From: a virus
DNA length: 54,038 bases
Reading direction: 5' to 3' (one strand)
Virus record (IMG/VR): IMGVR_UViG_3300048590_000251
Location: 1 to 54,038 of that record
A program made the position numbers and the translations under genes. Below are positions 7,848 through 49,119 of this stretch, in pieces (position 1 is the stretch's first letter; the number at the start of each line of letters is the position of its first letter). A model generated the notes under the pieces. That model was not told the DNA's origin and made no database searches. It saw only the letters and a program-made list of their open reading frames with translations.

Positions 7848-8129
7848 ATGCTGAACATTCCCAAACTGATCCGGGACGTCAATGCCTTCTGCGAAGAGTT
7901 CGGCATCATCCCGGCGACGGTCGCCAACGCGGCCCTTGATGACACTTACGGCCTGGTCAGACTGATCCGGGCCGGAGAAAAGAACGACGCCAAGGCCAGA
8001 AAAATAAGGGCCTACATGGCTGAGAGGCGCCGCGCAGCCCGACGTAAAGTCGATCTCTCGCAAGAAAAAGTGCCGCAAGGGAAACAGTCGGTTTCGCGGA
8101 CGGCGCATGATGACCAGCGCGGGGAGTAG
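7848..8129 (+). CDS. Cro-like small DNA-binding protein
   Basis: 93 residues, divergent from the repressor. The N-terminal half (IPKLIRDVNAFCEEFGIIPATVANAALDDTYGLVRLIRAGEKNDAKARKIRAYMAERR) has the length and hydrophobic pattern of the small HTH proteins that sit opposite CI in alphaproteobacterial prophages: helix, turn at GIIPATVANAAL, then a recognition-type helix. The C-terminus is basic and polar (RRAARRKVDLSQEKVPQGKQ). By position it is the first gene of the rightward early operon, so a lytic-switch repressor is the best guess. Confidence 0.65.
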   Translation: MLNIPKLIRDVNAFCEEFGIIPATVANAALDDTYGLVRLIRAGEKNDAKARKIRAYMAERRRAARRKVDLSQEKVPQGKQSVSRTAHDDQRGE

Positions 8130-30741: not shown

Positions 30742-33119
30742 GTTTCTTCGATGGAGCGGTGTCCGGGTTCTTCGCCGGGCGGGATTGGCGCGAAGGCAGA
30801 GATGCCCGCAAGCGTCAGCGTGAACTTGCGGAGATCGAGGAAAACCGACGCGCCGAAGAGTTCGGGTGGCGCCGGGATGAGCAGAAATTCCGCGTCGATA
30901 CCCTCTCCGCCCAGAAACGCGCCCGCGAACAGGCCGAGAAAGACGCCGAGGAAGAGCGAAAGGCGTTTGCCGAAGCCTACGGGGACGCCAAGGCGGCATC
31001 CGAGGGCGATGCGGGCACAGAGGCCGGGCCCGGCGCCCCTGACCCCAATGTCGCGCCGGACACGCCTGCCGGCGAGAGCACGAGCCCGCAATCGGTGCGC
31101 GAGATCACCGCAGGGCGGTCTGCGCCTGCTTATGGCGACGTTGCCCCTCCGAGGCCGCAGAAGCCGCCGGCCATTGTCAGCGATGCCCCGTCGATCGGCG
31201 CCTCTCTCGCGTCCGGGCCGGACGCGCCGCAAATGCCGGCCATGCCCGATATGCCGATCCCGCGACAGGGAGGGAAGGCGCTGCACCCGCCCTATCTCGA
31301 TCCGGCGCCCAACGTGCCGCCGCCGGACGGAAAGACCGGGCGTGTGGTCTTCGCGGAGTCGAGTGGTCTTCCGCAGCCCTATATCGCCAAAGCCCGCGAA
31401 TTTGACGCCTTGCAGGCGTGGCTTGAGCGCGGAGTCAGCACCGATACCGGGCAGCCGCTCAGCGAGACCGAGCGCGCCAGCGCGATTGCACGGCTGGCCG
31501 AGTTCGACCGGACGCTGCGCGGCGCCGCCGACCAGGTGGCAGAGGCAACTGGAGGCAGAAAGAGCGTTGCCCCGTCGCAGGAGATGGCCCACAGACCGCA
31601 GCGCATCGGCGACCGGCCTTCCACCTATGCGCCGGACGCGGCTCCCGCCGCGCCACAACCGCCGCGACCCATACCATCGGACGGGCTTGGCCCCCGTGCC
31701 GCCTTCGCCGAGGGCAACGGACTCGACGCGCAGACGGTCCTGATGGCGCAGGAAGCCGACAGGATGGAGGCCATGTTGCAGGATTCCGCGATGGAACCCA
31801 ACATGCGCAAGACTGTCGAGGCACGCCTCGCCGCACATGAAGAGCGACTCAACGGAGCCGCGCTCGCCGCCGGAATTGCCCCGCCGCGCGATCCGCGCGC
31901 CACGGATGCCGCCGTTCTCGACCAGCGCGCCCCGCCGCCGCAAATGGCCGTGGTGCCTGCCGGGATGCCGTCTCCGCCGCCAGATACCGCGATGGATGCC
32001 GGGTTTGTGCGTCCCGCTCCGGAGGAGAAGGTAAGCCGGGAGGCGCGGATCACCAGGCCCGACCTGCCGATCCCGCGTCCCCGTCCAGCGACCGTGGGCG
32101 GCGTCCGGGTTCCGTTTGGAGAGAAAGGCGCGGTGGACGCGCCGCCGGTGGTGGATGGGCCGCCTGCGGGCCCCGTGAGCAGCGCGCCGCCGGCCGCCGC
32201 CCAGCCCCCGTCCGATCCGGCTGCACCGCAACCCATCGCGCAGACCCCGCCGCCGCCGCAGGCAGCGCCTGACGGCGTTCCGTTGACGGAGCAGGGAACA
32301 CCGGCAACATCGGTCGATGCGGCGCAGGCGACCGCGCCGAAGCGCGATCACCCCGCGAAGAAGGGCGTGATCGGAGAGGGGATGCCGGTCAAGGCCACGC
32401 AGAAGCAACGCGAAAAGGCGGGCAAGGACTTCCTGACCTACTACGCCGAGAAGGGCGCGCCCAGGATCATCGAACACTACCTGAAGACCGGGCAGGTCGA
32501 GAAGGCTGTCGCGTTCCGGGATTTCATCCAGGACGAGCAGGTGAAGGCGGGGATGAAGAGCTGGTCGATGGCAGCTCACGCCGCAGCGATCGGAGATGAC
32601 GAAGGGTTCGTCAAGTATCTGGCCGAAGCCTACAACAGGCGCGGCTATTTCGATGACGGGTTCTCCGTCGTGGCAGAGGACTCCGGCCTGATCCGCGACA
32701 AGAGCGGCAGCGTAACCGGCGCCCAGATCACCTACAAGAAGGACGGCACCGGCGAAATATTCGTGGAGAAGGTCGATTCTCTCGATAACCTCTACGAGCA
32801 GGGACTCTGGATGCTGTCACCGGAGAAGATATTCGAGACAGGGTGGAACGATGTCCAAGCGGGCAGGGCCGCGCGGGCTGAAGTGACCAAGAAACTGGCG
32901 GAGGCGGGTCTCCCCGCCACACGAGCGAAGGCGGTCCTCGACACAATGGAAAAACTCTCGAAGTCGAACCTCAACTTCTCGCAACTGCCAGTGGAGGAAC
33001 AGGTGTCGCAGGCCATCGCCTTCCTTGATAGTGGCGGCGCCACGCCGACACCACCTTCCGCCACCGCATCCGGCGTCGGCGCCAACCCGCAGGGCGGCAG
33101 CCTGCCCTTCTACAACTGA
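30738..33119 (+). CDS. ejection-module protein with internal duplicate (793 aa)
   Basis: GTG start overlapping the lysozyme stop (GTGA). Residues 1-95 form a charged coiled coil (QRELAEIEENRRAEEFGWRRDEQKFRVDTLSAQKRAREQAEKDAEEERKAF). A long Pro/Ala-rich region follows, containing two related helical modules at about 190-275 (FAESSGLPQPYIAKAREFDALQAWLERG...ASAIARLAEFDRTLRGAADQVAEA) and 315-378 (FAEGNGLDAQTVLMAQEADRMEAMLQDS...KTVEARLAAHEERLNGAALAAG). The last 240 residues are a well-ordered helical domain (KATQKQREKAGKDFLTYYAEKGAPRIIEHYLKTGQVEKAVAFRDFIQDEQ). Position and size match an internal virion/ejection protein. Function at atomic level unknown. Confidence 0.75.
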   Translation: MSFFDGAVSGFFAGRDWREGRDARKRQRELAEIEENRRAEEFGWRRDEQKFRVDTLSAQKRAREQAEKDAEEERKAFAEAYGDAKAASEGDAGTEAGPGAPDPNVAPDTPAGESTSPQSVREITAGRSAPAYGDVAPPRPQKPPAIVSDAPSIGASLASGPDAPQMPAMPDMPIPRQGGKALHPPYLDPAPNVPPPDGKTGRVVFAESSGLPQPYIAKAREFDALQAWLERGVSTDTGQPLSETERASAIARLAEFDRTLRGAADQVAEATGGRKSVAPSQEMAHRPQRIGDRPSTYAPDAAPAAPQPPRPIPSDGLGPRAAFAEGNGLDAQTVLMAQEADRMEAMLQDSAMEPNMRKTVEARLAAHEERLNGAALAAGIAPPRDPRATDAAVLDQRAPPPQMAVVPAGMPSPPPDTAMDAGFVRPAPEEKVSREARITRPDLPIPRPRPATVGGVRVPFGEKGAVDAPPVVDGPPAGPVSSAPPAAAQPPSDPAAPQPIAQTPPPPQAAPDGVPLTEQGTPATSVDAAQATAPKRDHPAKKGVIGEGMPVKATQKQREKAGKDFLTYYAEKGAPRIIEHYLKTGQVEKAVAFRDFIQDEQVKAGMKSWSMAAHAAAIGDDEGFVKYLAEAYNRRGYFDDGFSVVAEDSGLIRDKSGSVTGAQITYKKDGTGEIFVEKVDSLDNLYEQGLWMLSPEKIFETGWNDVQAGRAARAEVTKKLAEAGLPATRAKAVLDTMEKLSKSNLNFSQLPVEEQVSQAIAFLDSGGATPTPPSATASGVGANPQGGSLPFYN

Positions 33120-33156
33120 TCCGACCCGTTGCCCTCTCAGACGAAAGAGTGACCCT

Positions 33157-36100
33157 GTGGCCGACAACATCTTCGCCAAGAACCCTCTGGATGCCACCCT
33201 GGAGGGCATGACCGCCCTGAAAACGCCGCCGCAAAGCCCGCGCGCGGCGTTCGAGGCCGCGTCGCGCTCCAGCGGAGTGCCGATCAACATTCTGCTGGCG
33301 GCAGCGGAAGCCTCGGGGGCGAAGACGGGAGAGGATGCCATCCGCGTCGTAGAGGCTGTGTCCGGAGAGTGGGGCGGCAGGATCAGGGCCGGGGAACCGA
33401 TCGAGCGCGTCGTCGGCGCGACCCTTGGTGGCGACGAGGCGGCGACGGCACAGTTTCTGGACCGCGCCCGCGCTCTCGGCCGGGAGTATTACCCCGATCT
33501 GGCGCCGAAGGAGCCGGGTTTCGTCGGCAATGTCGGGCGGGTTCTCGGCGCCTCTCTGGTGCGCGGCGGCGGAATGGCCGCCGAAGGTGTTGCCAATGCG
33601 GCGGCCTCCGCCATGGACAGCCAGCGCGCCATCCTCGGTGGGATCGGCGATGCCGCCCGCAAGGCCGCCGATGCCCTCGGGGTCAAGGACTTCGGCGGCT
33701 ACGTTGCCGACGAACTCGGCGTCACCACAGCCGCGGAATGGGCAGACCGGGGCGCCAGAGAGGCCGCTGATCGGGCGCAGGATGCCGGACGCTTCGTCGG
33801 CGACGCCGCCGCAGACAAATCGGACAGCATCCGGGAAGGTCTGTCCGACCGCGCCAGGCAGGCAATGGCGGGCAGCACCCCTGACGGGGTGATCTACGAC
33901 CCGCGGACATGGAGTCTCGGCGAGAACGCATCGTTGGAGGGCTACACCTATCACGCCGTCGATGTGCTGGGATCCCTGATCCCCGTCATTCTCGCCGGGA
34001 TCGCCACGGGCGGTATCGGAGCGGCGGCAGTCGGCGCCGCCATGGGCGGCGGCGAGGGCTCGCAGACCGCGCGGCAAGTGGTCGATGAGGCTTACAAGAA
34101 CGGCACCCTCGACCAATCGCCGATGTTCAGGCGTCTGGTCGCGGAAGGCGCCAGCCCGGACGATGCCTATGACCGAGTGCGCCGCGAGGCAGCCAAGGCC
34201 GGGACGCTGTTCCAGGCCCCGGTGAGCGCCTTCGGCGGATACGCCACCGCCTCGATCGTCAAGGGAACGGTCGGAAAGGCCGTCGGCGGTGGGATCATGC
34301 GCCGCGCCATTGCCTCCGGCGTGGCCTCGGCCGCCGAGGAGGGCTTGCAGGAGGCGGCGGAAACCGTCTCCGCAAACCTTGGCATCAAGGCCACGACTGG
34401 CCTGAAAATCAACATCGCCGACGGCACGTTCGGCGATTTCGTCTTGGGCGCCATCGGCGGCGCCGGTCCGGGCGCGGTCGGTGGGGCGCTTGGGCGGGGT
34501 CATGCCGGTGATCCGTCCAGGCGGCCGCCTGTCGCGGCACCCCCCCAGGAACCACCGGAGCCGGAGCCGGATGGGGGCATTCCCGCGGCAGGCGGTCAAC
34601 AACCCGTTCCAGCGGCGCCCGACCTCGCGCCCGAGCCGTCGCCGCTCCGGGATGCCGCCCGCGCCGCACCGCCGCCGGCCGCCGGAGATATCGCGCCGGG
34701 GTCGCGCGTCATCCTGAAATCCTCCGACAGCGCGCCTCCCGGCGAGCGTGTCCCCGACATGACCGGAACCTTTGTCGGCGAAAAGGGCCGCATGGTCCTG
34801 ATTGCCGACGAGGACGGAGAGGTTGTCGAGATTCCGCGCAACGCTTTCGATCTGGGAGCAGTGTCGATGCAGGCACTTGCGCTAGATCCGATGCTGCCGG
34901 AAACAGACGCGCCGGCCGATCCGGAGGCTCCGCCGCAGCCAGATATGGCTCAAGCGCCCCAGCCTGACCTTCAGCCGCCCGCGCCGGCCGCAGAGGTGCC
35001 GCCGCCGCAAGAAATTCCGCCGGCCGTAGATGTGTCTCCCGCTCCGGACGTCCCCGAGGATGTGGTGCGCCGCCGCTTGCGCATGATCGAGGATATCGCC
35101 AAACGCGACGGATGGACCGCCGATCTGATCGCCCAGCGAGACGCAGCCCGTGAGGCAGTCGCCAGAATTGGCGCGTCCATGGGCGTGGGTCCGGAACCCA
35201 GGCCACCGAACCCAGAGACGGAGGATACAGGCGATGTGGTTGAACCTGGACGAGCTTCAGAGGGACAGGGTGATCACGGCGTGGGAAGCGACCGCGCTGC
35301 GCCAGTGGCTCGACTCCCCGACGCCGGAAGTCCTGCCGAAGGAATGCCCGCTGTCAGAGATCCTGAACCGGATCCGCCTCCATCAATGGACCCCGGACCG
35401 CGCGCACTGACTCAGGAGACTGCGGAGAAGAAGACGGTCACGCCCGATCTGGTGACGGTTCGGGATGTCTACGGCAAGAGACACCGCGTGAGAAAGCCGG
35501 ATCTGGACGGCGACCGGGCCATGCTGCCCACGTTCAACGCCAATGGCGAAAGGACGAATGGCACGCTGCTGCACCGCGACAACATCGACCCGGACGGGTC
35601 CGGGGTGCGCGCCACCTACGCATCCGCGCCTTACATCGCCAAGGAAAATGACCGGCCGTTCGCGACCGAGGCGGCGGCGAAGGCCGCTGTGCGACACGTC
35701 AATCAGGATTTGGCGGATTTCAAAATCAAGCCGGTCAATGGCGGCTTTGTCGCGGTGCGCAAGAAGGCAAAACCGGACGCGGAGACGGCGCCAGAGACCC
35801 CGGATGCCCTTTCGATCGAGGATATCCGCACCAAGGCGGCGATCCTGCGCGGCTGGACCGGCGACAAGCCGCCCGTGGTCGACGGCGTGCTGTTTTCCCA
35901 CGATGTGAAGGCGGGCGGGTATACCTTCTCCCGCAAGCACAAGGAGAAGGTCGGGGCGGCGCTCAAGGTGGGTGCGAAGCCCGCGGCAGGCGAACCCCTG
36001 ACGGGCGAGATCATCACCCCGGAAGATGACGCGGAAGCGCGGCGCAAGGCGGCCACTTCGGTCGGCATCGAGCTGACCGATGCGCCGTTGCCGGTGCGCG

Positions 36101-39100
36101 CGCCGTGGTGGACCGACGCCAGCCCCGAGGTTCGGGCGGCGATCCTCGACGCGGCAGGCCCGCAGGCCACCAGAGACGCGCGCCAGACCCACGGATGGGA
36201 AAACCTGAGCGATGCCACCCGCAGGGCGCTCCTTGACGCGCACGGCCGCCTCTATCGCGCGGGCGAGATCACCAATGTCGGCACCATCGAGGCGCCACGC
36301 TACGCGCTGGCGGGCGCGAAGCCTGACGGCAGCCCGGCCTTGCCGGACAAGGACGCCGCGCGGATCTGGAACGCCACCCCGCCAGCGCGACGCGAAGCCA
36401 TCGTTGTCGAAGCCGGATGGGTGGTGAGCTCCGGCGTGAACAAGGGCCATGCCAGCCCGGTGGGCCGCAAGATCGCGCAGCGAACATGGAAGGAGCACCC
36501 GGAGAACATCGCATCGGTGCTGAGCGCGGCGATGAACAGGCTCGGGATGCGTTCGGCTCTCGAAGACACGATTTCCGGGACCAACGCGGACACCGAATCG
36601 GCATCTCAGGAAAATCCCGCAACGACCGACCAGAGCGAACCGACGCAAACCGCCGCGTCTCCCGCTGTGCCGACCCCGGCGCAGGCCGAGGCCGGCAACT
36701 ACCGCATGAAGCACGTCAGCTTTCAGGGCCTCGACATCACCATCGAGACCGAGAAAGGCCAGGAGCGGCGCGGCAAGGACAAGGACGGCGAGGAATGGTC
36801 GGTCACGATGCCGGCCGATTATGGCTACATCAAGCGCACCGAGGGGGCCGACGGCGATCACGTCGACGCCTATCTCGGCGACATGGCCGACAGTGATTTC
36901 GTGCTGATCGTCAATCAGGTCGATGCCGACACCGGCGCCTTCGATGAACACAAGGTCATCCTCGGGGCGATGGGCCGCAATGCGGCGCTGGACATCTACC
37001 GCGGCGGGTTCTCGGATGGCCGCGCCAATGACCGGATCGGCTCTTTCACCGCGACCAACATCGCCGGGTTCAAGGCATGGCTGGCAGCGGGGCCGCACAA
37101 GGCCGCGACGCAGAATCTGGACTTCCCGTTCAAGAAGAAGGCCGCCGATACGGATCGGACTCAATCGACGCCGATCATTTCCGATGACAAGCCAGCAGCC
37201 GATCCCGACACCGCCGAACAGGCCGCGATTCGCGCCCGCATCGAGAAGGAAGAGAAGGCCAACCCGGATCCCAAGCCGGTCATCGACTTCCGCGACATGA
37301 CCCAAGGGGTCGAGGGCCTGGCGCTGATCCGCGCCCTGCGCCTCGCCGGGGATGACGCCGCAACCCGGCAGCGGACGGCGAATGAGTGGGTGCATGGGCA
37401 ATTCAAGCGCACCGGCATGGAGCATCTGGTCGTTCTCGACAGGGAGGGCAAACTGTTGGTGGCGGCCGAGGGATCGGTCAACCATGTCGGGTTCCCGAAC
37501 TGGCTGAGCAATTACGCCAAGACCAAGATGATCTCCTACAATATCCACAACCACCCCTCCAACAGGGGCCCGAGCCCGGGCGACCTGGCGGCGGCGGCCT
37601 CCGGTTTCCGACCGGTCCATATCATCGGTGCGGACAAGGCGCTGCGCGGCTACAGCCCGACCCCGACCTTCATGGAGGGAGCGCCCAAGAGCATCTTCGC
37701 CTATGATGCCATTCGGGAAATTATTGACACGATCGACGGCGCCGTCGTCGGCATCATTCAGGCCCAGATCACCAATGGCGCCGTCAAGATAGATGACGCC
37801 AACGTCCTGCACAGCCATGCTGTTGCCAGGGCGATGGCCGAGGCCGGGGCGCTGGAGATCACCGGCAATGACATGGCGGCCGAAATCGACGCCGCCGGCA
37901 TCAATCAGGGAGAGATCAATGAGCGAGTCGCAGAAATACTTGCCCCATGGCTTCGACGGACCGGACAGCCTGTCGCCAAAGTCGGAGATCAAGGCGCTGC
38001 TGAACCGGCTGAAAGCGATACCGGCACCGGACGGCGTGGTGAAGAGGCGGATACGGCAGACCGAGAAGATGCTGGGCGCGGCGACGCTCAAGGGCGGGTT
38101 CCGACCCCCGCCGCGGTAAAGCCGGCCAAGGCCGGTTCGGCTGCCGTCCAGTTGAAAAACTGGACCGGGCTGGAGGTCAACGCCTACGACGACGAGACTT
38201 CGGATGATGGCCGAAATTCCAAGGTCAAGAACGAGTGGAAGAGCGACGCCACCCGATTTGGCCGGGCCATTGCGGCGATCCTGAAAGATGCCGGGTTCAC
38301 CGCGCCGCTTCCGGGCGGCCGGGCGCAAAGGGGCAAGACACCGAAGCCGATCAACCCGGTATCGTGGAATGCCAGCGGCATCGCCGGGTCTGGTGAGGTC
38401 AGCGTTTCGCTCGACGGCCCGGATGGGTTCGGCGTCTATATCCACATGGATGCCGATGGTCGGTCCATGGGCGGGGAAAGCCCGGTCCGCATCTACTGGC
38501 GTGTTCGGAAGAACACCGACTCGCCCTACGGCGGCGAAATGAACCAGTGGGTTCAGGACAAGCAGATTGCCGCTGGCGACATCACTGACATGATCCTGAA
38601 AGCGATCGAGCGCCGGGCGGCACAGCCCGAGGCGGCAAAGCCAGAGCCGACTCCGCAGCCCATGACCGAAGACCCGAAGATCCCTCGCGGATACGAGTTG
38701 ACCTATATCAAGCGCGCGACCGGACCAGAGGCCCGAGCCAACGGCTTCACTCCGGGAGAGCCGCACAAGGCGGTCATCAGGCGCGACCAGCCCTACGGCG
38801 TCTACGATTTTGTTGGAAAGACCCGTGCGGATGCCATCGCAGGCGCTCTGAGACTGGCAATGAAGCCCGCGACCCGCCCGACGCCCCAGGTGCCGCCGAT
38901 GGCCGGAATGACCCCGATGGGGGCCAAGCCGGAGCCCGACGCGACCAAAAAGCCGTCAGATGTTGAGGCCGAACAGGCGGAGACAGATCCGGGCACTGTC
39001 CCCACTTCTTCGCAAACATCTCCCCCAACAAATGCCGATAATCCGGCGATTATCCCGATCACGGAGCCGCCGAAGAAGAGCGGCGCCCTGTCCAACCTGT

Positions 39101-42100
39101 CGCAGGCCAAGCAGGACCGGGCCGCTCTGCTGCGCGCCAGGATCGCCGACCGGCTCAAGAACCAGTTGAACACCGGCGTTGACCCGGCGCTGCTGGTCGA
39201 TGCGATCGAACTGGCCGGCATCTACATCGAATCCGGCTTCCGCAAATTCCGCGACGTGCTGAAAGCCGTCGCCGCCGACATGGGCCTGACCGAGGTCGAT
39301 GCCGAGCCGTGGGTGCGCGCCGGCTACAACGAGGCCCGCGACGGCCTCGAACTGGCGGATGAAGATGTCTCCGACATGGACGACAGCAAGGCCGTGCTGG
39401 CGCATGTCCGCGACATCAGGAAAGCCGCGAAAGAAGGTTTGGAAAAGCCGGTAGACGCACCTATATCTGACGCACCAGCCACCGAGGGTGAACCCGATGA
39501 GCCGCAGACAAGAACTGGTCGAGATGGCCGAGGAAATGAAGGCCGAGAGTCAGGCGCTGATCGACAAGGAAATCTCGGAACCGGGGAGCCGGATGGAAAC
39601 CGAGGCGATCGAGACCTGGAAGAACAACAACCCGACACTCTACCGGGTGATGAAGGAACGCGGCGCACTGGAGGCGACGGCACACGTCGTGGTCCATCGG
39701 ATACTGGAGCAGGCCAAGCGGATGACCAAAGCGGGGATGCCGCCGTCGGAAGCCCGGACGGAAGCCTACCGCGACCAGATGATGCTGGACTAGAAGCGCA
39801 AAAGCCCGACGAACCGGCATCGCCGGCGCGCTCGAACTACCGCATTGATGATCCCGAGGCTCTGGTCGGCGGAACGCCGAAGCGCCGCTTCGCGCGCAAC
39901 CGTGAAGCCATCGAAGCCTATCAGAGCATCAGGGACGAAGCCCGCGAGCCTACCCCGCAGGAACTGGATGCCATGGCATCCTATATCGGCTGGGGATCGT
40001 TCGGGCAGCAACTCTTTCAGGGAACCTGGACCCGGCCGCGGTTCGTGGACGGCTGGAAATCCGAGAACGAATGGCTGCGTCAGCACTTGGGCAAGGACGA
40101 GTGGGAAGACGCCCAGCGCAGCATCATCAATGCGCATTATACCGACCCGCCGACGGTCAGGGCAATGTGGGGCATGGTCGAGCGACTCGGCTTCAAGGGT
40201 GGCAGGGTGCTGGAGCCCTCCATGGGAATCGGCAACTTCTTCGGCATGATGCCCGCGCAACTGGCCGCCAATTCGCAGCTCACCGGAATCGAACTGGACT
40301 CGCTGACCGGCGGCATGGCGAAACTGCTCTATCCGCGCGCTGCCGTGTCCGTGATGGGCTATCAGGACAGCCGGACGCCTGACAACTTCTACGATCTCGT
40401 GATCGGCAACTGGCCCTTCGCCAATATCGAGGTGCCGGATCGGCGCTACATGAAGCTGAAGCCGAGCCTGCACGACTACTTCTTCCTCAAGGCGCTCGAC
40501 CAGGTGCGGCCCGGCGGCCTCGTGGTCGGCATCACCTCCGCCTTCACCATGGACAAGAAGGCCACCAATATCCGGGCGGCACTCGCCCGCCGCGCGGATC
40601 TTGTCGCCACCTTCCGCCTGCCAAGCGGTGCGTTCGAGAAATATGCCGGAACCAGCGTCGTCACCGACATCATCATCCTGCAAAAGCGGCAAGAGCCGAT
40701 CCTCGACATTTCCGGGGTTACGTGGGTTCGGACAGCAGAGGTGGACACCCCGGCAGGAACGCCGGTGACGGTCAACCAGACCTATGCCGACAACCCGGAT
40801 AAGGTTCTCGGCACCCTCAATTTCGGCACCGGATCGACCTATGGCGCCCCGAGCATGATCGTGGATCGACCGGCCGATCTCCTGGAGCGGCTGGAGGCGC
40901 TGCCGGCGACGCTGCCGGAAGGGGTCTACACCGCCACCCAGCGGGGCAAGGAGCCGCGGTTCATCTCAAACCACACGACCGCGCAGCAAAACAGCGTGAC
41001 CGAGGTCAAGGGTGTTCTCTACCAGGTCCAAGGCGAGCGGCTGGTCCGGTTCGAGGACGTGGCGAAATACAAGGTGAAGGACGCCAAGAAGACCGCAGCG
41101 CGCGAGGCCGAGATCATCGCCTTCATCGACATGCGCGAGAAGTTGGGCGCGGTCATCGACGCCGACCGGGCCGGCACCGAGGATGCCGACACCAAGCGCA
41201 AGGCGCTACGCAAAGCCTTCGATGCCTTCCGCAAGGCGCACGGGAATATCGCCGACTCGCTGGCGCTGTCGCTCCTGCTTCGGGCCAAAGACCCCGGCGC
41301 CCCGATGGTTCAGGCGCTGGAGGCCAAAGACGGCACGCCTGCGGCAATCCTGTCCCGGCCCACCATTCGGGCGCCCTCGACGCTGGAAAACCCCAGCATC
41401 CGTGACGCCTTCGTGATTGCGCGCAACGAGTCCGTGGCCTTCGACCTCGAACGGGTCGCAGCGCTTGCCAAGGCGAAGCCCGAAGAGGTGATCGCGGATC
41501 TGGCCGGATCCGGGGCAATTTATCGCACTCCCGGTGGCGCCTATGAGGTCGCCGATGCCTACCTGTCGGGGAACGTTCGGCAGAAGTTGCGGGAGGCAAA
41601 GGCCGCTGCCGAGGCTGGTGAGGATATGGCGGCTTCGATCTCGGCGCTGGAAAAAGTCCTGCCGCCGTTCCGGCCCTATTACGACATCGAGGCCAAACTT
41701 GGCGCGATGTGGATCCCCGATCAGGTCTATATGGACTTCCTGACCGAGAAACTCGGAATGTCGCCGATCCAGAGGCAGAACAGCGAAGTGCGCTGGTCAG
41801 CGGGCGCATGGCGGCCGCGCCTCGACCCGTCGCTCAACCACAAGCCGGAAGCGTCCTCGGTCGGTCACTCAGATGTCCGCATCGGCAGCTTCATCAGCCA
41901 CGCGATGAACAACCAGACCATCATCGTGAAATACCGGGACAACGAAGGGGAACACAAGGACGAGAAGGCGAGCGAGGAAGCCAACGCCAAGGCGGCCAAG
42001 CTGCGCGAGGACTTCTCCGAATGGGTCTGGTCCGATCCCGAGCGGCGCCACGACCTTGAACTGGCCTATAACGAGCAGATGAACGCCATCGCCACCCCGC

Positions 42101-45100
42101 AATTCGACGGGTCGTTCCTCGATTTTCAGGGCATGGCCCTGCAACGCGGCGATCAGGAGTTCAACCTGCGCCGGCACCAGGCCAATGCGATCTGGCGCGG
42201 CATCCTCAACGGGCGTGGCATCTATGCCCATGAGGTCGGCACCGGCAAGACCATCACCATGGCCGGCATCGCCGTCGAGAGCCGCCGCTACGGGAAGGCC
42301 AGAAAGCCGCTGGTCGTGGCGCATAACGCCAACTCCAAGGCTGTCGCCAACGAAATGCAGGAGACCTATCCGGGTGGGAAGTTCCTCTACATCGACAACC
42401 TGGCCCCCGGCGAAATCGAGGCCGAGATGCGCCGCATCGCCACCGACGATTGGGATGCGGTCATCATCCCGCACTCGCTGCTGGACCGGATGGCGTTGAG
42501 CCAGAAAACCCTCGAGGCTCTGGCCGCAAAGGAAATCGAGGCGCTGGAAGCCGAAGCTCTTGCCGCCGCCGCAGAGGATGGAGCCGACCTCACCCTTGAG
42601 GACATGGACGATCCGGACGCCATGAAGAAGGTTCGATCCCCGACCGCAAAGCAACTGGTCAAGGCGCGCGAGAACATCATCGCCTCGATCCAGAAGGCCG
42701 CGCTGCGCGCATCGAAAGACGGTGCCGTGCCATTCGAGGATCTTGGCATCGACATGCTGATCGTGGACGAGAGCCACGAGTTCAAGAAGCCCTCGATCGC
42801 CACGCGGATGACCGTGAAGGGCTTGAACAAGGCCACGTCGGCGCGCTCGATCCAGTTGAAATTCCTGTCGGATTATATCCGCGGCCAGAACAACGGACGC
42901 GGCGTCCACGTCTTCACTGGCACTCCGATCACCAACACCCTGACCGAAATCTACCATCAGATGCGCTATGTGATGGAAGACGTGATGGAGCAGAGCAACA
43001 TCTCGGCCTGGGACGGGTTCTTCAACACCTTCGCCGCCTCCGTGCCCGACATCGAGCTGACCTCGGCCGGCGATTACCAGAGTGTCGAGCGTCTTTCGTC
43101 CTTCGTGAACGTGCCCGAACTGCGCCGGATGGCCGGGCAATACATGGACATCGTGTTCGCCGACGACATGCCGGAAATGCAGCCACGGCGCGCGTCGAGC
43201 GGCAAGACGCTTCTCGACAGCGACCTCACCAAGGCTGACCGGGACGAATTGCGCAACGGGCGCCAGGAGAACCCCGAAGGCCGCCCCTACAAGGAGGTGA
43301 TCCACGACATCGCCGACATGGAGCCGGATCAGCGCCGCATCCTCGATCAATCCATTCGCTTCGCCAGGCAGTTTCGCGTCCTGTCGGGCAGGGATAAGAT
43401 TGACGTCATGCGCCGCGGTGGGCCTGATGCCCCGATCGTGTTCGATGCCGTGCCGTCCAGGGCCGGGCTCGATATCCGACTCCACGAGATCGACGCCGAG
43501 GACTCGCCGACCAGCAAGGCCAACCGCGCGGTGCGCAACGTCACCCAGATCTACAATGAGGACAAGCACACCACTCAGGTCATCTTCATGGACGAGGGCT
43601 ATTCGGACTCGGTAACGAGGGTGAAGAAGAAAGACGGTGAAGTCGTCAGCCGCGAGAAGGTCGAGAAGTTCAACCTTGCCAAGGATATCGTGGCAAAACT
43701 GGTGGCGGCCGGGATCCCCGAGGCTGAGATCGCCATTGTCAACAAGGATGTGTCGAAGGAACAGCGCGCCAAGATTTCCGAGCAGATGAACAACCTGCAA
43801 ACCCGCGTCGTGATCGGCCTGACCTCCACTCTTGGCGTCGGCGTGAACATGCAGAAATACCTGCGGGCCATGCACCACCTCGACGCGCCCTGGATGCCTG
43901 GCGATCTGGAGCAGCGCAACGGACGCGGCCAGCGTCAGGGCAACGAGTGGAACACGGTTCTGGAGTATCGCTATCTGACGGAAGGGCTGGACGGCCGCCG
44001 CTGGCAGGTTCTCACCATCAAGGACCGCTTCATCAAGGCATTCCTGAAAGCCGAGGATGGCGTGAGGGTGATCGAGGGCGACGCCACTGATGACGCCACC
44101 AGTATGGGCGCCGACGATCTGGCCGCAACGCTGTCCGAGGCGGCCGGCGATCCGCGCATCTTTCAGGTCAAGAAGTTGGAAAAGGACATCGAGCGCCTGC
44201 AACGGCGCGAACGGCTGCACGTCGATGGCGTCGCCGATGCCAGGCGCAAGGTCAAGAAGTTGCGCGATTCCATCCCGCGAACCGAGGATAGTGTCGCCGA
44301 CCTGGAGCGAGCGACAGAAGAAGTCGCGATGGCGCGCGAAAAGGGCTTTACCGCGACCATCGACGGAAAGACATTCGACAGTCGCGACGATGCGGCAAAA
44401 GCCATGGATGCGCTTGTCCAGCCGATCGTGGCGCGCGGGGGGCACAGCCTCTCGACAGAGTGGCGGGATATCCCGGCATCGGTGCAGGGCTTCCAGATCC
44501 AGATCAAGAGATCGAACCTGATGCGAGACGGTCAGGTCCTGGTCGATTTCCGCGTCAAATACGATGGCGTTGGCGATTATGACACCATGGGGGCGCCGAG
44601 CGTCGCATCCGCAGAGGCGGTGCTCCGCAAGATCGCGGATCGGCTGGAGAGGGCCCGCACCCAACTGGCAGAGGACCGCGCCAGTGCAGACCGCATCGAG
44701 AAAGCCGCCGCCGCTCCGTTCCAGCAAGCCGAAGCCCTGAAAAAGAAGAAGGTTCAGGTTGAAGCCCTGCTTCAGGATCTCAAGGATAATCCCGTTGCGC
44801 CGCCGTCGTGGTTGCGACAGGGCGCTCCGATCGACAGCGTGATCCACGTTGACAAAAAACCCCGCGCCGTGACCGGACATCGCTGGACCAAGGATGGGTG
44901 GTTCGTCAGCACGGAAGCGGGAGACGTTCCGTATCTCGACGCCCGAAGCGAGACGGGGGTTCCGCTCTATCAGGAACGCCCCTTCGAGCCGCCGCAGATC
45001 GAGGAAGGATCGAAGCTCCGGACCGGCGACGAGCGGGATGAAGCGGAGATGTCGGAACCGAGGCCCCCACCCGTCACATCCCTGACGGGTGATGAGCTTG

Positions 45101-48100
45101 GGATTGTGGCGGATATTCGGGAACTCGGCCGCGCCGCGGAAGGCTGGTATACGGACAACCTCATCGGGAAATCCGTGGTCAATGCCGAAACCGGCTGGGA
45201 TATCCGCTTCTCCCGTCGAGGCGCGAAGAAAATCGGCGGTCGAAAGGGTGAGTATCTCTATCGGATCGTGCCTGCCCTCGCCGAGATCGTGAGGGGCGGG
45301 CATCTGATCGGAACCGAGATAGACCGGGGCGCAGACGGCCAAACGACAAGGTGGCATCGGTTCTCGGCGGCTGTCGAACTCGCCGGGGTCATCAAGGACG
45401 TGATCATCACCGTCCGTGAGGCCCCGAACGGCAAGTTCCACTACGATCTATCCAGGGACACCAGCGACGGCGCCCGCTTCTTCCATGCCAGCCCTCCGGT
45501 ATCAGAAGCCGGTGCGAGGCAGGATGACGCGCGCGCCGCCTCACTGAATATAGATGAGGTATCTTCCTTCGGCAACGGGGCAGAGGAAATTCCTGATGCC
45601 GACATTGCCGCCATCGCGGCCGAGGTGGACAGCCTGATGCGCCGCATCGGACTCGCCGGAACGGTGCGGACCGACGTCGTGAGGGCGATCATCGACGCGG
45701 CCGGGACGGAGCGGGCCGGCGCCAGTGGACTCTACAGCCGCGGCGCTGGTCGCATCCAGATCCGGGCCGACGCGGTTGCGGGGCCGATTCCGACGTTGCG
45801 CCACGAGATCATCCATGCGCTGCGCGACGCCGCGCTCTGGGGGCGGGACTACGGCCTCTTCACCAGGGAAGAATGGCGGGCGCTGGTGCGCTCGGCGCGG
45901 GCCGACAAGGCGGCAGTCAAGGACGTTGACGCCCGCTACCCGAACCTGCCCGAGATCGGGCGCACCGAAGAACTGGTTGCCGAACTCTACCGCAAATGGG
46001 CGACAGGGGAAGTCTCGCCGGGCCTGGCGTCAACCGCCCTTGGCCGTATCCGGTCCTTCTTCATGGCGCTGGCAAATGCGCTGCGCGGCAGGGGCTTCAC
46101 TTCGACAGCCGCGATCTTTCGCGGCATCGAGCGCGGCGATATCGCCGCCAGAGCCATGCCGCGCGACGCCAGCGGGCAGTTCATCAGCCTGGCGGAAGCC
46201 GCGATGGTGGACATGTCCGCCGAACCGGAAGCCACCACCGAGACCGCGTTCGACCGCAAGGAACGCAAGTTCCTCTCGAACCTGTTGACCGATGCGATGG
46301 GCGGGCGCGGGCGCTTCAATCTGCTTGCGCTGGTTCCGGGCCGGCCACTGTTCACCGAACTCGGGCGGAAGATGCCGAGCGCGCTGACATTCCTGCGCAT
46401 CAAGGAGGAAATGGACGCGACACGGCAGGAGTGGCATGAAGCGTCCGACCGTCTGGCGACCGATTGGCGCGGGCACCTGTCCCGCGACGGTGCGGGAAAC
46501 CGCGCGATGATGGATCTCATGCACGATGCCACGATCGCCGGGCTGGACCCGTCCAAGCCTTACAAGTCCGCGGTCCGGGACGGTGATGAGCGCCTTGCGC
46601 ACGGCGACGACGAGCGGGCGGAGGCGGCGCGCGGGCGACTCATGGCAGAACCGAGGCGCCGGGCGAAATACGACCGTCTTCAAGCGAGGTTCCGGGATCT
46701 GTCTCCGGACTTCCAGCGCCTGTTCGGCGAAGTTCGCGACATGCACAAGAAGATGGGCGCCGACTTCGAACGCACCATCCTCGACAATGTGCGCAAGGCC
46801 ATGGAAATCGCCAGCGACCGGGCGCGAGAGGCTTATGACGACGAGATGCGGCGCATCCGCGACGAGGGCCTGCAAGGCGCAGAGCGGACCGAGGCCGAGA
46901 AGGAGGCGCGGAAGAAACGCGACGGCGCCCTGCGTCGCCAGCACGTCGCCAAGGCGGCGCGACTCGCATCCCTGCGCAGCATCTTCGAGACGAACAAGGT
47001 GGAGGAGCCGTATTTCCCCCTGATGCGCTTCGGAAAATACGTCGTGACCGTGCGCGATGAAGAGGGGAAGGTGATCTCCTTCTCCAAGTTCGAGAGCGAA
47101 GCCAAGCAGCAGGCTTTCGCGGCAGAGATGCGCGCGATCCGCGGGCAGACCGTCCAGATCGGAACGATGGACGACGATTTCACCGCCCGGAAGCATGTGG
47201 ACCCGAACTTCGTGGCCGATGTCGAGGAAATGATCGGAGATACCGTCGCCGATCCGGAGATCATGGACGCGATCTGGCAACGCTGGCTCGATACCCTGCC
47301 CGATATGTCGGTGCGCAAGAGCCGCATCCACCGGAAGGGGACGCCAGGCTATTCGGATGACGCCTTCCGCGCCTTCGGCTACCAGATGTTCCACGGCGCG
47401 CACCAGCTCGCGCGCCTGAAATACACCATGGACCTCGACAAGGCGGTGGAGGACGCGAAGCGCGAGGCGGCCGCATCCGACGACCCCAACCGGACGATGC
47501 TAGTCGTGTCGGAAATGGAGCGCCGCAAGGCGTTCACGATGAACCCGACCGGAAGCGCGACAGCGCAGATGTTCACCTCCGCCGCCTTCATCTACTATCT
47601 CGGGTTCACGCCCGCCGCGGCGATGGTGAACCTGACGCAGACTACAGTGGTCGGGATCCCGATCCTGTCGTCGGCTTTCGAGAAGGGCGGCGTGGCCCGC
47701 GCCAGCCGGGAACTGATGCGGGCCGCCGGCGACTTCGGTCGCGGGAAGGCGCACGCAGAACGCTCGTCGCGCCTGACCGAGGACGAGCGCGCTGCGCTGG
47801 CCGAAGCCTATCGGCGCGGCACGATCGACAAGAGCCAGGCGCACGATCTGGCCGGCGTCGGCGAAACCGGCATCGAGCCCGACTCCACGATGCTGCGCCG
47901 CATCCTGAGCGACCGGGCGGCCCATCAGTGGGTCGGGGTCCGCAAGAAGGCGATGGCCGGGATCTCCTTCATGTTCCATCACACCGAAAGGGCGAACCGA
48001 GAGATCACCTTCCTTGCCGCCTACCGGATGGCAAAGGACAACGGGTTCACCGGCGAGGCCGCGATCGACAAGGCTGGCGACGTGACGTGGAAGACGCATT

Positions 48101-49119
48101 TTGACTACCAGAACTCGTCCAGGCCCCGCCTGATGCAAAACGACACCGCAAAGGTTCTGCTGGTCTTCCGGAACTTCCAGTTGAACATGCTGTGGCGCCT
48201 GTTCCGCGACACGCACCAGGCATTCGCCGGAGAAACCCCGCAGCTTCGCCGCGAAGCGCGTGGGCAACTGATCGGGATCACGGCGATGCTGATGCTCCAT
48301 GCCGGAGTCCGCGGCGTCTGGGGCTATGCAATCATCATGGGGTTGCTAAGCCTCCTGCCGGGCGCCGGAACCGCCGATGATCTTGAGGACGAAATCAAGA
48401 CGGCGCTGGTCAATCTCTTCGGCCCTTATGTGGCTGGGCTCATTCTGAACGGCGTCCCCGGCCAGGTTCTCGGGGTCGATCTTACTGCCCGCATCGGGAT
48501 GCCGGAGCTTTGGTTCCGATCATCAGATCGAAACCTCGAAGGCGATGATGCCTACAATTACTGGCTGCAACAGATGGTCGGGGCGGTCCCCGGCATGTTC
48601 GAGAACGGCTGGCGCGGCATGAGCATGATTGGCGACGGCGAGGTCGCTCGCGGCATCGAGGCGATGATGCCGAAGGCGGCGCGGGACTGGATGAAGACCT
48701 ATCGCTATCTCCGCGAAGGCGTCACCACCTATCGCGGCGACCCGTTGATCGACAACCTCTCCGCAACTGATGCGATCAAGCAGGCGATCGGTTTCACGCC
48801 TGCAAAGGTATCGGAGCGATACGAGGAGAACACCAGGCTGCGGAACCGCGAAGGCGAAATCATGGGCGCACGGAAGCGGGTTCTCAATGATGCGGCGGCC
48901 GCGATCAAGAGGGGCAAGGGGCTACCGTCGAGCGTTCTGGAGTCGATCGACGCCTTCAACCGCGCGAACCCGGACTATCCGATCACCGGCGACACGATCC
49001 GCCAGTCGATGCGTTCGCGGCTGCGCTACAGCGACCAGACCGAAGGCGGAGTCCGGTTGAACCCGAAACTGAACGAGCGTCTGCGACGGGAGGCGGCGCC
49101 ACGCATCAGCGGCGGCTGA
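33157..49119 (+). CDS. giant polyvalent ejection protein (5,320 aa)
   Basis: Begins at a GTG after a weak GAAAGAG box; the longer upstream frame is arginine/histidine/proline-rich and not protein-like. In order: an N-terminal helical, weakly transglycosylase-like segment (about 27-115); Ala/Gly-rich hydrophobic segments (about 267-302 and 379-405); an SH3-like domain (509-572); an inorganic-pyrophosphatase-like domain (1182-1325; GDHVDAYLG); a JAB/Mov34-like domain with IHNHPSNRGPSPGD (1463-1476); a DarB-type adenine methylase (LEPSMGIGNFFG 2352-2363; GNWPF 2417-2421); an SNF2 helicase (HEVGTGKT 3025-3032; VDESHEF 3203-3209; EQRNGRGQRQG 3585-3595); a coiled coil (3672-3730); an HEIIH zincin (4216-4220); a C-terminal LPD38-like region (about 4615-5310) with a hydrophobic span (5042-5072). 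The likely role is an internal protein ejected with the DNA, shielding it from restriction. Linkers are Pro/Asp/Glu/Gly/Arg-rich and hide three small ORFs. Confidence 0.9.
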   Translation: MADNIFAKNPLDATLEGMTALKTPPQSPRAAFEAASRSSGVPINILLAAAEASGAKTGEDAIRVVEAVSGEWGGRIRAGEPIERVVGATLGGDEAATAQFLDRARALGREYYPDLAPKEPGFVGNVGRVLGASLVRGGGMAAEGVANAAASAMDSQRAILGGIGDAARKAADALGVKDFGGYVADELGVTTAAEWADRGAREAADRAQDAGRFVGDAAADKSDSIREGLSDRARQAMAGSTPDGVIYDPRTWSLGENASLEGYTYHAVDVLGSLIPVILAGIATGGIGAAAVGAAMGGGEGSQTARQVVDEAYKNGTLDQSPMFRRLVAEGASPDDAYDRVRREAAKAGTLFQAPVSAFGGYATASIVKGTVGKAVGGGIMRRAIASGVASAAEEGLQEAAETVSANLGIKATTGLKINIADGTFGDFVLGAIGGAGPGAVGGALGRGHAGDPSRRPPVAAPPQEPPEPEPDGGIPAAGGQQPVPAAPDLAPEPSPLRDAARAAPPPAAGDIAPGSRVILKSSDSAPPGERVPDMTGTFVGEKGRMVLIADEDGEVVEIPRNAFDLGAVSMQALALDPMLPETDAPADPEAPPQPDMAQAPQPDLQPPAPAAEVPPPQEIPPAVDVSPAPDVPEDVVRRRLRMIEDIAKRDGWTADLIAQRDAAREAVARIGASMGVGPEPRPPNPETEDTGDVVEPGRASEGQGDHGVGSDRAAPVARLPDAGSPAEGMPAVRDPEPDPPPSMDPGPRALTQETAEKKTVTPDLVTVRDVYGKRHRVRKPDLDGDRAMLPTFNANGERTNGTLLHRDNIDPDGSGVRATYASAPYIAKENDRPFATEAAAKAAVRHVNQDLADFKIKPVNGGFVAVRKKAKPDAETAPETPDALSIEDIRTKAAILRGWTGDKPPVVDGVLFSHDVKAGGYTFSRKHKEKVGAALKVGAKPAAGEPLTGEIITPEDDAEARRKAATSVGIELTDAPLPVRAPWWTDASPEVRAAILDAAGPQATRDARQTHGWENLSDATRRALLDAHGRLYRAGEITNVGTIEAPRYALAGAKPDGSPALPDKDAARIWNATPPARREAIVVEAGWVVSSGVNKGHASPVGRKIAQRTWKEHPENIASVLSAAMNRLGMRSALEDTISGTNADTESASQENPATTDQSEPTQTAASPAVPTPAQAEAGNYRMKHVSFQGLDITIETEKGQERRGKDKDGEEWSVTMPADYGYIKRTEGADGDHVDAYLGDMADSDFVLIVNQVDADTGAFDEHKVILGAMGRNAALDIYRGGFSDGRANDRIGSFTATNIAGFKAWLAAGPHKAATQNLDFPFKKKAADTDRTQSTPIISDDKPAADPDTAEQAAIRARIEKEEKANPDPKPVIDFRDMTQGVEGLALIRALRLAGDDAATRQRTANEWVHGQFKRTGMEHLVVLDREGKLLVAAEGSVNHVGFPNWLSNYAKTKMISYNIHNHPSNRGPSPGDLAAAASGFRPVHIIGADKALRGYSPTPTFMEGAPKSIFAYDAIREIIDTIDGAVVGIIQAQITNGAVKIDDANVLHSHAVARAMAEAGALEITGNDMAAEIDAAGINQGEINERVAEILAPWLRRTGQPVAKVGDQGAAEPAESDTGTGRRGEEADTADREDAGRGDAQGRVPTPAAVKPAKAGSAAVQLKNWTGLEVNAYDDETSDDGRNSKVKNEWKSDATRFGRAIAAILKDAGFTAPLPGGRAQRGKTPKPINPVSWNASGIAGSGEVSVSLDGPDGFGVYIHMDADGRSMGGESPVRIYWRVRKNTDSPYGGEMNQWVQDKQIAAGDITDMILKAIERRAAQPEAAKPEPTPQPMTEDPKIPRGYELTYIKRATGPEARANGFTPGEPHKAVIRRDQPYGVYDFVGKTRADAIAGALRLAMKPATRPTPQVPPMAGMTPMGAKPEPDATKKPSDVEAEQAETDPGTVPTSSQTSPPTNADNPAIIPITEPPKKSGALSNLSQAKQDRAALLRARIADRLKNQLNTGVDPALLVDAIELAGIYIESGFRKFRDVLKAVAADMGLTEVDAEPWVRAGYNEARDGLELADEDVSDMDDSKAVLAHVRDIRKAAKEGLEKPVDAPISDAPATEGEPDEPQTRTGRDGRGNEGRESGADRQGNLGTGEPDGNRGDRDLEEQQPDTLPGDEGTRRTGGDGTRRGPSDTGAGQADDQSGDAAVGSPDGSLPRPDDAGLEAQKPDEPASPARSNYRIDDPEALVGGTPKRRFARNREAIEAYQSIRDEAREPTPQELDAMASYIGWGSFGQQLFQGTWTRPRFVDGWKSENEWLRQHLGKDEWEDAQRSIINAHYTDPPTVRAMWGMVERLGFKGGRVLEPSMGIGNFFGMMPAQLAANSQLTGIELDSLTGGMAKLLYPRAAVSVMGYQDSRTPDNFYDLVIGNWPFANIEVPDRRYMKLKPSLHDYFFLKALDQVRPGGLVVGITSAFTMDKKATNIRAALARRADLVATFRLPSGAFEKYAGTSVVTDIIILQKRQEPILDISGVTWVRTAEVDTPAGTPVTVNQTYADNPDKVLGTLNFGTGSTYGAPSMIVDRPADLLERLEALPATLPEGVYTATQRGKEPRFISNHTTAQQNSVTEVKGVLYQVQGERLVRFEDVAKYKVKDAKKTAAREAEIIAFIDMREKLGAVIDADRAGTEDADTKRKALRKAFDAFRKAHGNIADSLALSLLLRAKDPGAPMVQALEAKDGTPAAILSRPTIRAPSTLENPSIRDAFVIARNESVAFDLERVAALAKAKPEEVIADLAGSGAIYRTPGGAYEVADAYLSGNVRQKLREAKAAAEAGEDMAASISALEKVLPPFRPYYDIEAKLGAMWIPDQVYMDFLTEKLGMSPIQRQNSEVRWSAGAWRPRLDPSLNHKPEASSVGHSDVRIGSFISHAMNNQTIIVKYRDNEGEHKDEKASEEANAKAAKLREDFSEWVWSDPERRHDLELAYNEQMNAIATPQFDGSFLDFQGMALQRGDQEFNLRRHQANAIWRGILNGRGIYAHEVGTGKTITMAGIAVESRRYGKARKPLVVAHNANSKAVANEMQETYPGGKFLYIDNLAPGEIEAEMRRIATDDWDAVIIPHSLLDRMALSQKTLEALAAKEIEALEAEALAAAAEDGADLTLEDMDDPDAMKKVRSPTAKQLVKARENIIASIQKAALRASKDGAVPFEDLGIDMLIVDESHEFKKPSIATRMTVKGLNKATSARSIQLKFLSDYIRGQNNGRGVHVFTGTPITNTLTEIYHQMRYVMEDVMEQSNISAWDGFFNTFAASVPDIELTSAGDYQSVERLSSFVNVPELRRMAGQYMDIVFADDMPEMQPRRASSGKTLLDSDLTKADRDELRNGRQENPEGRPYKEVIHDIADMEPDQRRILDQSIRFARQFRVLSGRDKIDVMRRGGPDAPIVFDAVPSRAGLDIRLHEIDAEDSPTSKANRAVRNVTQIYNEDKHTTQVIFMDEGYSDSVTRVKKKDGEVVSREKVEKFNLAKDIVAKLVAAGIPEAEIAIVNKDVSKEQRAKISEQMNNLQTRVVIGLTSTLGVGVNMQKYLRAMHHLDAPWMPGDLEQRNGRGQRQGNEWNTVLEYRYLTEGLDGRRWQVLTIKDRFIKAFLKAEDGVRVIEGDATDDATSMGADDLAATLSEAAGDPRIFQVKKLEKDIERLQRRERLHVDGVADARRKVKKLRDSIPRTEDSVADLERATEEVAMAREKGFTATIDGKTFDSRDDAAKAMDALVQPIVARGGHSLSTEWRDIPASVQGFQIQIKRSNLMRDGQVLVDFRVKYDGVGDYDTMGAPSVASAEAVLRKIADRLERARTQLAEDRASADRIEKAAAAPFQQAEALKKKKVQVEALLQDLKDNPVAPPSWLRQGAPIDSVIHVDKKPRAVTGHRWTKDGWFVSTEAGDVPYLDARSETGVPLYQERPFEPPQIEEGSKLRTGDERDEAEMSEPRPPPVTSLTGDELGIVADIRELGRAAEGWYTDNLIGKSVVNAETGWDIRFSRRGAKKIGGRKGEYLYRIVPALAEIVRGGHLIGTEIDRGADGQTTRWHRFSAAVELAGVIKDVIITVREAPNGKFHYDLSRDTSDGARFFHASPPVSEAGARQDDARAASLNIDEVSSFGNGAEEIPDADIAAIAAEVDSLMRRIGLAGTVRTDVVRAIIDAAGTERAGASGLYSRGAGRIQIRADAVAGPIPTLRHEIIHALRDAALWGRDYGLFTREEWRALVRSARADKAAVKDVDARYPNLPEIGRTEELVAELYRKWATGEVSPGLASTALGRIRSFFMALANALRGRGFTSTAAIFRGIERGDIAARAMPRDASGQFISLAEAAMVDMSAEPEATTETAFDRKERKFLSNLLTDAMGGRGRFNLLALVPGRPLFTELGRKMPSALTFLRIKEEMDATRQEWHEASDRLATDWRGHLSRDGAGNRAMMDLMHDATIAGLDPSKPYKSAVRDGDERLAHGDDERAEAARGRLMAEPRRRAKYDRLQARFRDLSPDFQRLFGEVRDMHKKMGADFERTILDNVRKAMEIASDRAREAYDDEMRRIRDEGLQGAERTEAEKEARKKRDGALRRQHVAKAARLASLRSIFETNKVEEPYFPLMRFGKYVVTVRDEEGKVISFSKFESEAKQQAFAAEMRAIRGQTVQIGTMDDDFTARKHVDPNFVADVEEMIGDTVADPEIMDAIWQRWLDTLPDMSVRKSRIHRKGTPGYSDDAFRAFGYQMFHGAHQLARLKYTMDLDKAVEDAKREAAASDDPNRTMLVVSEMERRKAFTMNPTGSATAQMFTSAAFIYYLGFTPAAAMVNLTQTTVVGIPILSSAFEKGGVARASRELMRAAGDFGRGKAHAERSSRLTEDERAALAEAYRRGTIDKSQAHDLAGVGETGIEPDSTMLRRILSDRAAHQWVGVRKKAMAGISFMFHHTERANREITFLAAYRMAKDNGFTGEAAIDKAGDVTWKTHFDYQNSSRPRLMQNDTAKVLLVFRNFQLNMLWRLFRDTHQAFAGETPQLRREARGQLIGITAMLMLHAGVRGVWGYAIIMGLLSLLPGAGTADDLEDEIKTALVNLFGPYVAGLILNGVPGQVLGVDLTARIGMPELWFRSSDRNLEGDDAYNYWLQQMVGAVPGMFENGWRGMSMIGDGEVARGIEAMMPKAARDWMKTYRYLREGVTTYRGDPLIDNLSATDAIKQAIGFTPAKVSERYEENTRLRNREGEIMGARKRVLNDAAAAIKRGKGLPSSVLESIDAFNRANPDYPITGDTIRQSMRSRLRYSDQTEGGVRLNPKLNERLRREAAPRISGG
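35234..35410 (+). CDS. nested ORF 1 in the giant gene (58 aa)
   Basis: In the +1 frame relative to the giant gene. ATG with GGAGG nine bases upstream. Product MWLNLDELQRDRVITAWEAT and further 38 residues (ALRQWLDSPTPEVLPKECPLSEILNRIRLHQWTPDRAH) has normal, helix-forming composition, while the giant frame at the same place is a Pro/Asp/Glu/Gly linker (residues about 693-752). Function unknown. Whether it is translated is untested. Confidence 0.5.
   Translation: MWLNLDELQRDRVITAWEATALRQWLDSPTPEVLPKECPLSEILNRIRLHQWTPDRAH
37919..38119 (+). CDS. nested ORF 2 in the giant gene (66 aa)
   Basis: In the +1 frame, overlapping the linker (giant residues 1588-1654) just after the JAB-like domain. The ATG is six bases from GGAG within AGGGAGAG. 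Sequence MSESQKYLPHGFDGPDSLSP then KSEIKALLNRLKAIPAPDGVVKRRIRQTEKMLGAATLKGGFRPPPR: compact basic helical protein, well-formed composition. The giant frame here is Gly/Asp/Arg-rich. Function unknown. Confidence 0.55.
   Translation: MSESQKYLPHGFDGPDSLSPKSEIKALLNRLKAIPAPDGVVKRRIRQTEKMLGAATLKGGFRPPPR
39497..39793 (+). CDS. nested ORF 3 in the giant gene (98 aa)
   Basis: In the +1 frame, in the linker just before the methylase domain (giant residues 2114-2212). ATG with GAGGG eight bases before it; an in-frame GTG lies three codons earlier. The product MSRRQELVEMAEEMKAESQA, then LIDKEISEPGSRMETEAIETWKNNNPTLYRVMKERGALEATAHVVVHRILEQAKRMTKAGMPPSEARTEAYRDQMMLD, is a regular helical protein. By hand count about 80 of 98 codons end in G or C, so the codon pattern of this stretch fits the small ORF. 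The giant frame is low-complexity here. I do not know its function. Confidence 0.6.
   Translation: MSRRQELVEMAEEMKAESQALIDKEISEPGSRMETEAIETWKNNNPTLYRVMKERGALEATAHVVVHRILEQAKRMTKAGMPPSEARTEAYRDQMMLD

Follow-up and report, generated by a model that had tools for sequence, protein, structure and literature searches.

DarB-like polyvalent proteins have been described from phages (PMC5512222), and one of them, P1 DarB, is packaged into the virion (PMC9024508). Genes lying hidden within other genes are also known. In the ShiLan insertion, a small gene for a homing HNH nuclease lies in another frame of a phage methylase gene, the host frame is open and the structure makes sense only in the hidden frame (PMC11855218). 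Lambda Rz1 lies within Rz, and internal initiation allows the same phage DNA to encode two proteins in different frames (PMC5295617). The tnpV gene of Tn4451-type mobile elements is described as a stand-alone transposon gene, and its product is a postulated excision protein, a role suggested by its likeness to lambda Xis (PMC3158075). Here we analysed IMG/VR virus record IMGVR_UViG_3300048590_000251 over its 54,038 nucleotides (the window) and show that a DarB-like giant gene contains a genuine, widely conserved overlapping gene, ORF3, of a TnpV-like family. ORF3 is one of three open reading frames (ORFs) in the +1 frame of the giant, which are very probably independently translated genes. The ORF3 overlap is new to the literature searched: with subscription journals mostly outside the searches, we found no description of this nested arrangement and no paper describing TnpV as an overlapping gene, and overlapping genes did not turn up in a search of the polyvalent-protein paper (PMC5512222) by terms.

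The host giant frame (33025-49119, plus strand) encodes a DarB-like polyvalent protein of 5,364 amino acids (aa) with inorganic-pyrophosphatase-like (PF18823), methylase, ResIII/SNF2 helicase, Helicase_C, LPD3 and LPD39 domains. A methylase-helicase dyad and polyvalent-protein domains are thus joined in one late phage gene, and relatives match full-length over the methylase region. A protein from USP_18 shares 52.6% identity across 1,000 aa, and DarB-like phage proteins share 32-35%. The homologue of the giant in phage JC1, gp69, was detected in virions with 51 unique peptides (PMC9144972), which shows that the giant frame is really translated, at least in one relative. Virion packaging and protection of DNA from restriction are known for relatives of the giant (PMC9144972, PMC9024508). 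P1 darB, in contrast, is a shorter, separate gene. In the P1 darB region no credible ORF3-family match was obtained, and P1 Ulx was rejected as a stand-alone ORF3, since it lies downstream, not upstream, of darB and has no match to the profile hidden Markov model (HMM).

All three small ORFs are on the plus strand at +1 relative to the giant: ORF1 (35234-35410, 58 aa), ORF2 (37919-38119, 66 aa) and ORF3 (39497-39793, 98 aa), the last directly upstream of the methylase domain. Unlike the Rz1/Rz pair, the giant has several unrelated small genes in separate linkers. Each is preceded by a Shine-Dalgarno (SD) sequence, GGAGG at 35220-35224, GGGAG at 37908-37912 and GAGGG at 39484-39488, with anti-SD duplex energies of -9.5, -8.2 and -6.4 kcal/mol, respectively; among the 130 ATGs in the +1 frame of the giant these rank 1st, 3rd and 8th. 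The original prediction, made from the letters of the window, had placed the ORFs, their frame and their SD boxes correctly. It was also right that the giant frame reads there as Asp/Gly/Arg/Pro/Glu linker: D, G, R, P, E, T, Q, S and A make up 83-91% of its residues in the overlaps compared with 65% giant-wide, and the stretch of the giant richest in D/G/R/E starts at 39484.

The calculation of GC content by codon position that it had proposed revealed gene-like small frames and a displaced pattern in the giant frame. At positions 1/2/3 the values were 0.63/0.46/0.86 (ORF1), 0.61/0.48/0.85 (ORF2) and 0.62/0.39/0.83 (ORF3), like those of the ordinary genes of the window (0.58-0.77/0.43-0.55/0.76-0.87). 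The giant frame showed 0.83-0.87/0.61-0.63/0.39-0.48 inside the overlaps and 0.67/0.48/0.79 over its whole length. Third-position GC (GC3) of the giant frame was 27, 32 and 39 in ORF1, ORF2 and ORF3 against expected values of 46.8, 52.4 and 76.3 (z = -6.7, -6.4 and -9.3), and none of 20,000 synonymous-codon simulations came out this low. A codon-usage score trained on the other genes of the window preferred the +1 frame over the giant frame in 16 of 531 scoring segments, 15 of them at or beside the three ORFs. The open +1 frame itself was rejected as evidence for genes: when synonymous codons were redrawn in simulation, it stayed open at these ORFs by chance in 85-94% of cases, since +1 stops rarely arise in linkers with little Leu, Val, Met and Ile.

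At this junction, directly before the methylase domain, the nearest giants likewise contain a small +1 ORF. A clear family (A1) is made up of the proteins of rhizobial, enterobacterial, vibrio and other phages, and the window clade (A2) matched it in profile comparison with a probability of 95 (E = 2e-8). An HMM made without the window clade placed the window ORF3 2nd among 4,002 pieces (E = 9e-8), with its clade mates adjoining. Using one member as query, tblastn of phage records gave 21 records; almost all of the matches were covered by a gene annotated as giant or DarB-like, and no match was listed as a gene in its own right. In scans of genomes and viral contigs, an open frame spanned the small gene in 79 of 84 loci (many of them near-duplicates), always with the small gene at +1 and in no locus at +2, and five loci had the small gene without a giant. 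Isolated phages and relatives of the window have nested +1 relatives too, in about 20 unannotated giants, and all the isolated-phage copies are unannotated; another scan brought L118-L121 and L123, likewise at +1, into the window clade, and Bcep22-like phages showed a weaker match at the same position. Few copies were found by genome-family sampling and none by a plasmid search with a rhizobial member as query. For the statement on phase only homology-based counts were used, because a screen for low GC3 is biased to +1 by construction and also catches tails of upstream genes overlapping the start of the giant's open frame (for example L040, L092 and L119). Start sites are maintained as well: 93 of 94 small genes begin with ATG or GTG, and their median anti-SD energy was -6.6 kcal/mol compared with -2.4 kcal/mol for other +1 ATGs of the same giants (p = 4e-45).

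At +1, position 2 of the small frame coincides with position 3 of the giant frame. If selection acted on the giant alone, small-frame position 2 would vary most; instead it varied least, the substitutions in 269 pairs of ORF3 relatives being distributed 28/24/48% over small-frame positions 1/2/3 (22/14/64% in the flanking giant codons). Over the same DNA, conservation was higher in the small protein than in the giant frame in all 269 pairs and in 29 of 29 non-overlapping pairs, so that selection on the giant frame alone, which would have spoken against the original prediction, was not seen for the ORF3 family. For this family only, purifying selection on the small frame beyond that on the host frame was found. 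Among recodings that left the small protein unchanged, the median share with an open giant frame was 1.7%, and for a host frame at +2 it was 0%. In four of five stand-alone genes the would-be giant frame has stops well inside, and in the fifth, from Variovorax, it closes just short of the end. The substitution pattern together with the recoding simulations shows that both frames are maintained, and the constant +1 phase can be explained by stop avoidance.

In profile searches, 43 of 65 members of the ORF3 family matched Pfam TnpV (PF14198) at E <= 0.1, the best at 1e-8, and the Fibrobacter member (L045) exceeded the PF14198 cut-off. Family A matched the TnpV profile with E = 9e-6, thereby joining the window ORF3 to TnpV, and the ORF3 family shares with TnpV the core W/Y-L-K-E-x-x-P...Y...L...G.L. 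By these comparisons the ORF3 family is TnpV-like. Unmistakable TnpV lies at +1 in giants of human-fecal phage records (E = 1e-24 to 1e-41). In Bacillota, true TnpV is nested at +1 in SNF2/methylase giants on plasmids of Monoglobus, Cohnella and Enterococcus, the Enterococcus case being judged by match position and profile match. The Monoglobus and Cohnella annotations list a 'TnpV protein', the Monoglobus SNF2 gene being annotated to start far downstream, and one Monoglobus plasmid has two nested TnpV genes and one stand-alone copy. In phage phiNJ3, TnpV is stand-alone beside recombinases; ORF3 lies inside the giant gene, where no serine recombinase or transposon context was found. The 'endolysin' label that PHROGs gives to relatives was not accepted as a function, as only the last ~100 positions of a long profile match the small protein; the best match comes from PBC5, in which orf33 and the small protein form one in-frame fusion.

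AlphaFold2 predicted a compact protein of five helices from the ORF3 alignment (predicted local distance difference test, pLDDT, 95.1; predicted template modelling score, pTM, 0.86). When these bases were read in the giant frame and modelled from a similarly deep alignment, no helices resulted (pLDDT 61.3, pTM 0.14). As with ShiLan, the structure makes sense in the hidden frame. The ShiLan gene, however, encodes a homing HNH nuclease that spreads actively, whereas the ORF3 family is helical, is not a nuclease and keeps to one inter-domain junction in giants of several phyla, accompanied by further hidden families; no HNH or other nuclease family was among the Pfam matches of the 65 members. 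One viral match in the structure searches of ORF3 carries no name and was not interpreted.

Several observations weigh against our reading of the three ORFs. The window ORF3 itself has no PF14198 match, the window clade alone gave no clear match to TnpV profiles (probability 1.9), and its link to TnpV runs through the intermediate family. Structure searches of ORF3 matched no solved structure in the Protein Data Bank. Many of the 84 scanned loci, being near-duplicates, are not independent. No homologues of ORF1 and ORF2 turned up in any of the searches, and we infer the translation of the small proteins from sequence. The absence of homologues of ORF1 and ORF2, the +1 frame being open in most simulations and the presence of 22 +1 ORFs of at least 58 aa starting with ATG in the giant would all suit non-coding ORFs that arose by chance in a GC-rich linker of low complexity. 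Yet the synonymous codon choice of the giant is abnormal exactly at the three ORFs, the protein, start, SD sequence, fold and substitution pattern of ORF3 are conserved, and stand-alone homologues exist in which the other frames are closed. Chance is therefore an extremely improbable explanation of the three ORFs, and for ORF3 it is already refuted. Very improbable, too, is programmed ribosomal frameshifting from the giant frame, which would yield shortened giants with a small C-terminal domain. Such products are suggested by the deposited genome of PBC5 (L010 4943-11500): there orf33, the N-terminal part of the giant, continues in frame into the TnpV-like gene, and a separate ORF encodes the methylase giant. 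This is one old record, however, and may reflect a sequence error or a real fusion. Against frameshifting, the small frame is closed 42 nucleotides upstream of ORF3 and within 60 nucleotides in 38 of 87 relatives, the small genes have their own start codons and strong SD sequences, and stand-alone copies begin at the same point. Independent translation of the three ORFs accordingly remains the reading we favour, and for ORF3 the TnpV-like homology, the selection on the small frame, the maintained SD sequence and the giant frame kept open all support it.

ORF1 and ORF2 are probably genes of the same sort without relatives, as their gene-like codon structure and strong SD sites suggest; lacking relatives, they permit no statement on their age. 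Other giants contain hidden genes outside the ORF3 family. Family B (IDPPSPWDTLQSW...) is hidden at +1 and unannotated after the helicase in 24 mostly rhizobial loci (for example L029 16619-16819). Erwinia phage giants have two more hidden +1 genes (L017 9529-9759 and 17950-18180, also in L018 and L023) with GC3 z of -6 to -8; ORF1 as a homologue of an Erwinia-phage nested gene (35% in a MAFFT alignment) was rejected, the match not being significant. USP_18 and L118 have in common a basic hidden gene ~2 kb into the giant, a depth comparable to that of ORF1; homology between it and ORF1 was not found. In Pseudomonas phage 8P the slot ahead of the methylase domain holds an unrelated small +1 gene (L012 11750-12022; ANRWMMGWPDRVKALI...). 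A hidden tandem is seen in L121, where a second hidden +1 ORF (7812-8000, 62 aa, z = -5.4) ends right before the TnpV-like gene.

In 89 of 91 giants the overlap with the ORF3 family contains the 70-aa stretch richest in D/G/R/E, and two giants without TnpV reach a D/G/R/E peak of only 0.41-0.43 compared with 0.51-0.66. This supports the idea that the linker owes its composition to the small gene, as the original prediction had proposed in holding that the codon pattern of the small ORF forces it. The same prediction took the small genes to be ancestral and the giant to have arisen by reading through a former operon. Here the gene-like character of the ORFs and the existence of stand-alone homologues (of ORF3, none of ORF1 or ORF2) agreed with it; the read-through history goes beyond these findings, and no small gene was found between separate pieces of a giant gene. 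Stand-alone copies are scattered in the tree, which has few columns and an arbitrary root, and imply six changes, at least three of them forced by well-supported branches; the Variovorax copy lies inside a nested clade. At least some stand-alone copies therefore look like later escapes. In Pseudidiomarina (L041 9974-10762) the domain belongs to a stand-alone protein of 262 aa whose C-terminal part apparently spans the membrane; its gene lies near an apparent type I modification gene. The nested arrangement is already common to proteobacterial phages and Bacillota elements.

We weighed three histories for the nested arrangement. Small genes may have invaded inter-domain linkers and been kept only where the giant frame stayed open, much as in the ShiLan methylase insertion (PMC11855218), a course that we regard as possible, if short of probable. 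Comparable slots indeed hold different families (TnpV-like, Bcep22-like, the unrelated 8P protein, family B after the helicase) and +1 is the phase most often left open, but the small genes include no nuclease or integrase, and the constancy of the TnpV-like gene at one junction in different phyla suggests inheritance rather than mobility. That the giant frame was extended across formerly separate small genes would account for the normal codon structure in the small frame and the odd one in the giant frame, for the stand-alone homologues and for TnpV upstream of the methylase ORF in elements with a split giant (L131, L045). We consider such read-through rather doubtful, as the small gene is still overlapped at +1 even in split giants and the scattered stand-alone copies lie partly inside nested clades. 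In our scans nested copies were far more numerous than stand-alone ones, as expected if a pre-existing linker had given rise to the small gene de novo. The genome-typical codon structure, compact fold and independent homologues of the small frame argue against this overprinting, and so does a linker composition that follows from the small gene and not the reverse; we judge it quite unlikely.

With three independently translated genes, ribosomes would start at the internal SD/ATG sites on the giant's own mRNA and end at the stop of the small gene, while others would read the same bases in the giant frame into a disordered linker. Any function of ORF3 is a guess, since its fold matches no solved structure. 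Because it stays beside the methylase-helicase dyad in phages and conjugative-type elements alike, its position hints at a small accessory partner of the dyad, a chaperone or regulator, although we hold such a role to be rather unlikely as it stands. With tentative confidence, and close to an even chance, we suggest that giant polyvalent methylase-helicase genes in phages and conjugative-type elements of several phyla are 'operons inside a gene', with several hidden +1 genes in fixed inter-domain slots, chiefly a TnpV-like protein that would have been kept since before the lineages of proteobacterial phages and Bacillota parted or exchanged, and would be an obligate partner of the giant.

Annotation has mostly overlooked the ORF3 family, since gene callers do not permit one gene to lie wholly within another. 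In phage records the giant alone is listed, whereas one plasmid annotation lists TnpV and begins the SNF2 gene further downstream. Among the records consulted, that of Itty13 (L009 7546-18804) lists three long minus-strand ORFs and misses a giant polyvalent gene on the opposite strand. The nested genes expose a widespread gene family that sits hidden in giants of phages and mobile elements of several bacterial phyla, and they explain the odd D/G/R/E linkers of these giants. They also provide about 100 natural cases in which selection acts on two frames and stand-alone copies serve as controls, and the role of TnpV becomes testable beside its likely partner.

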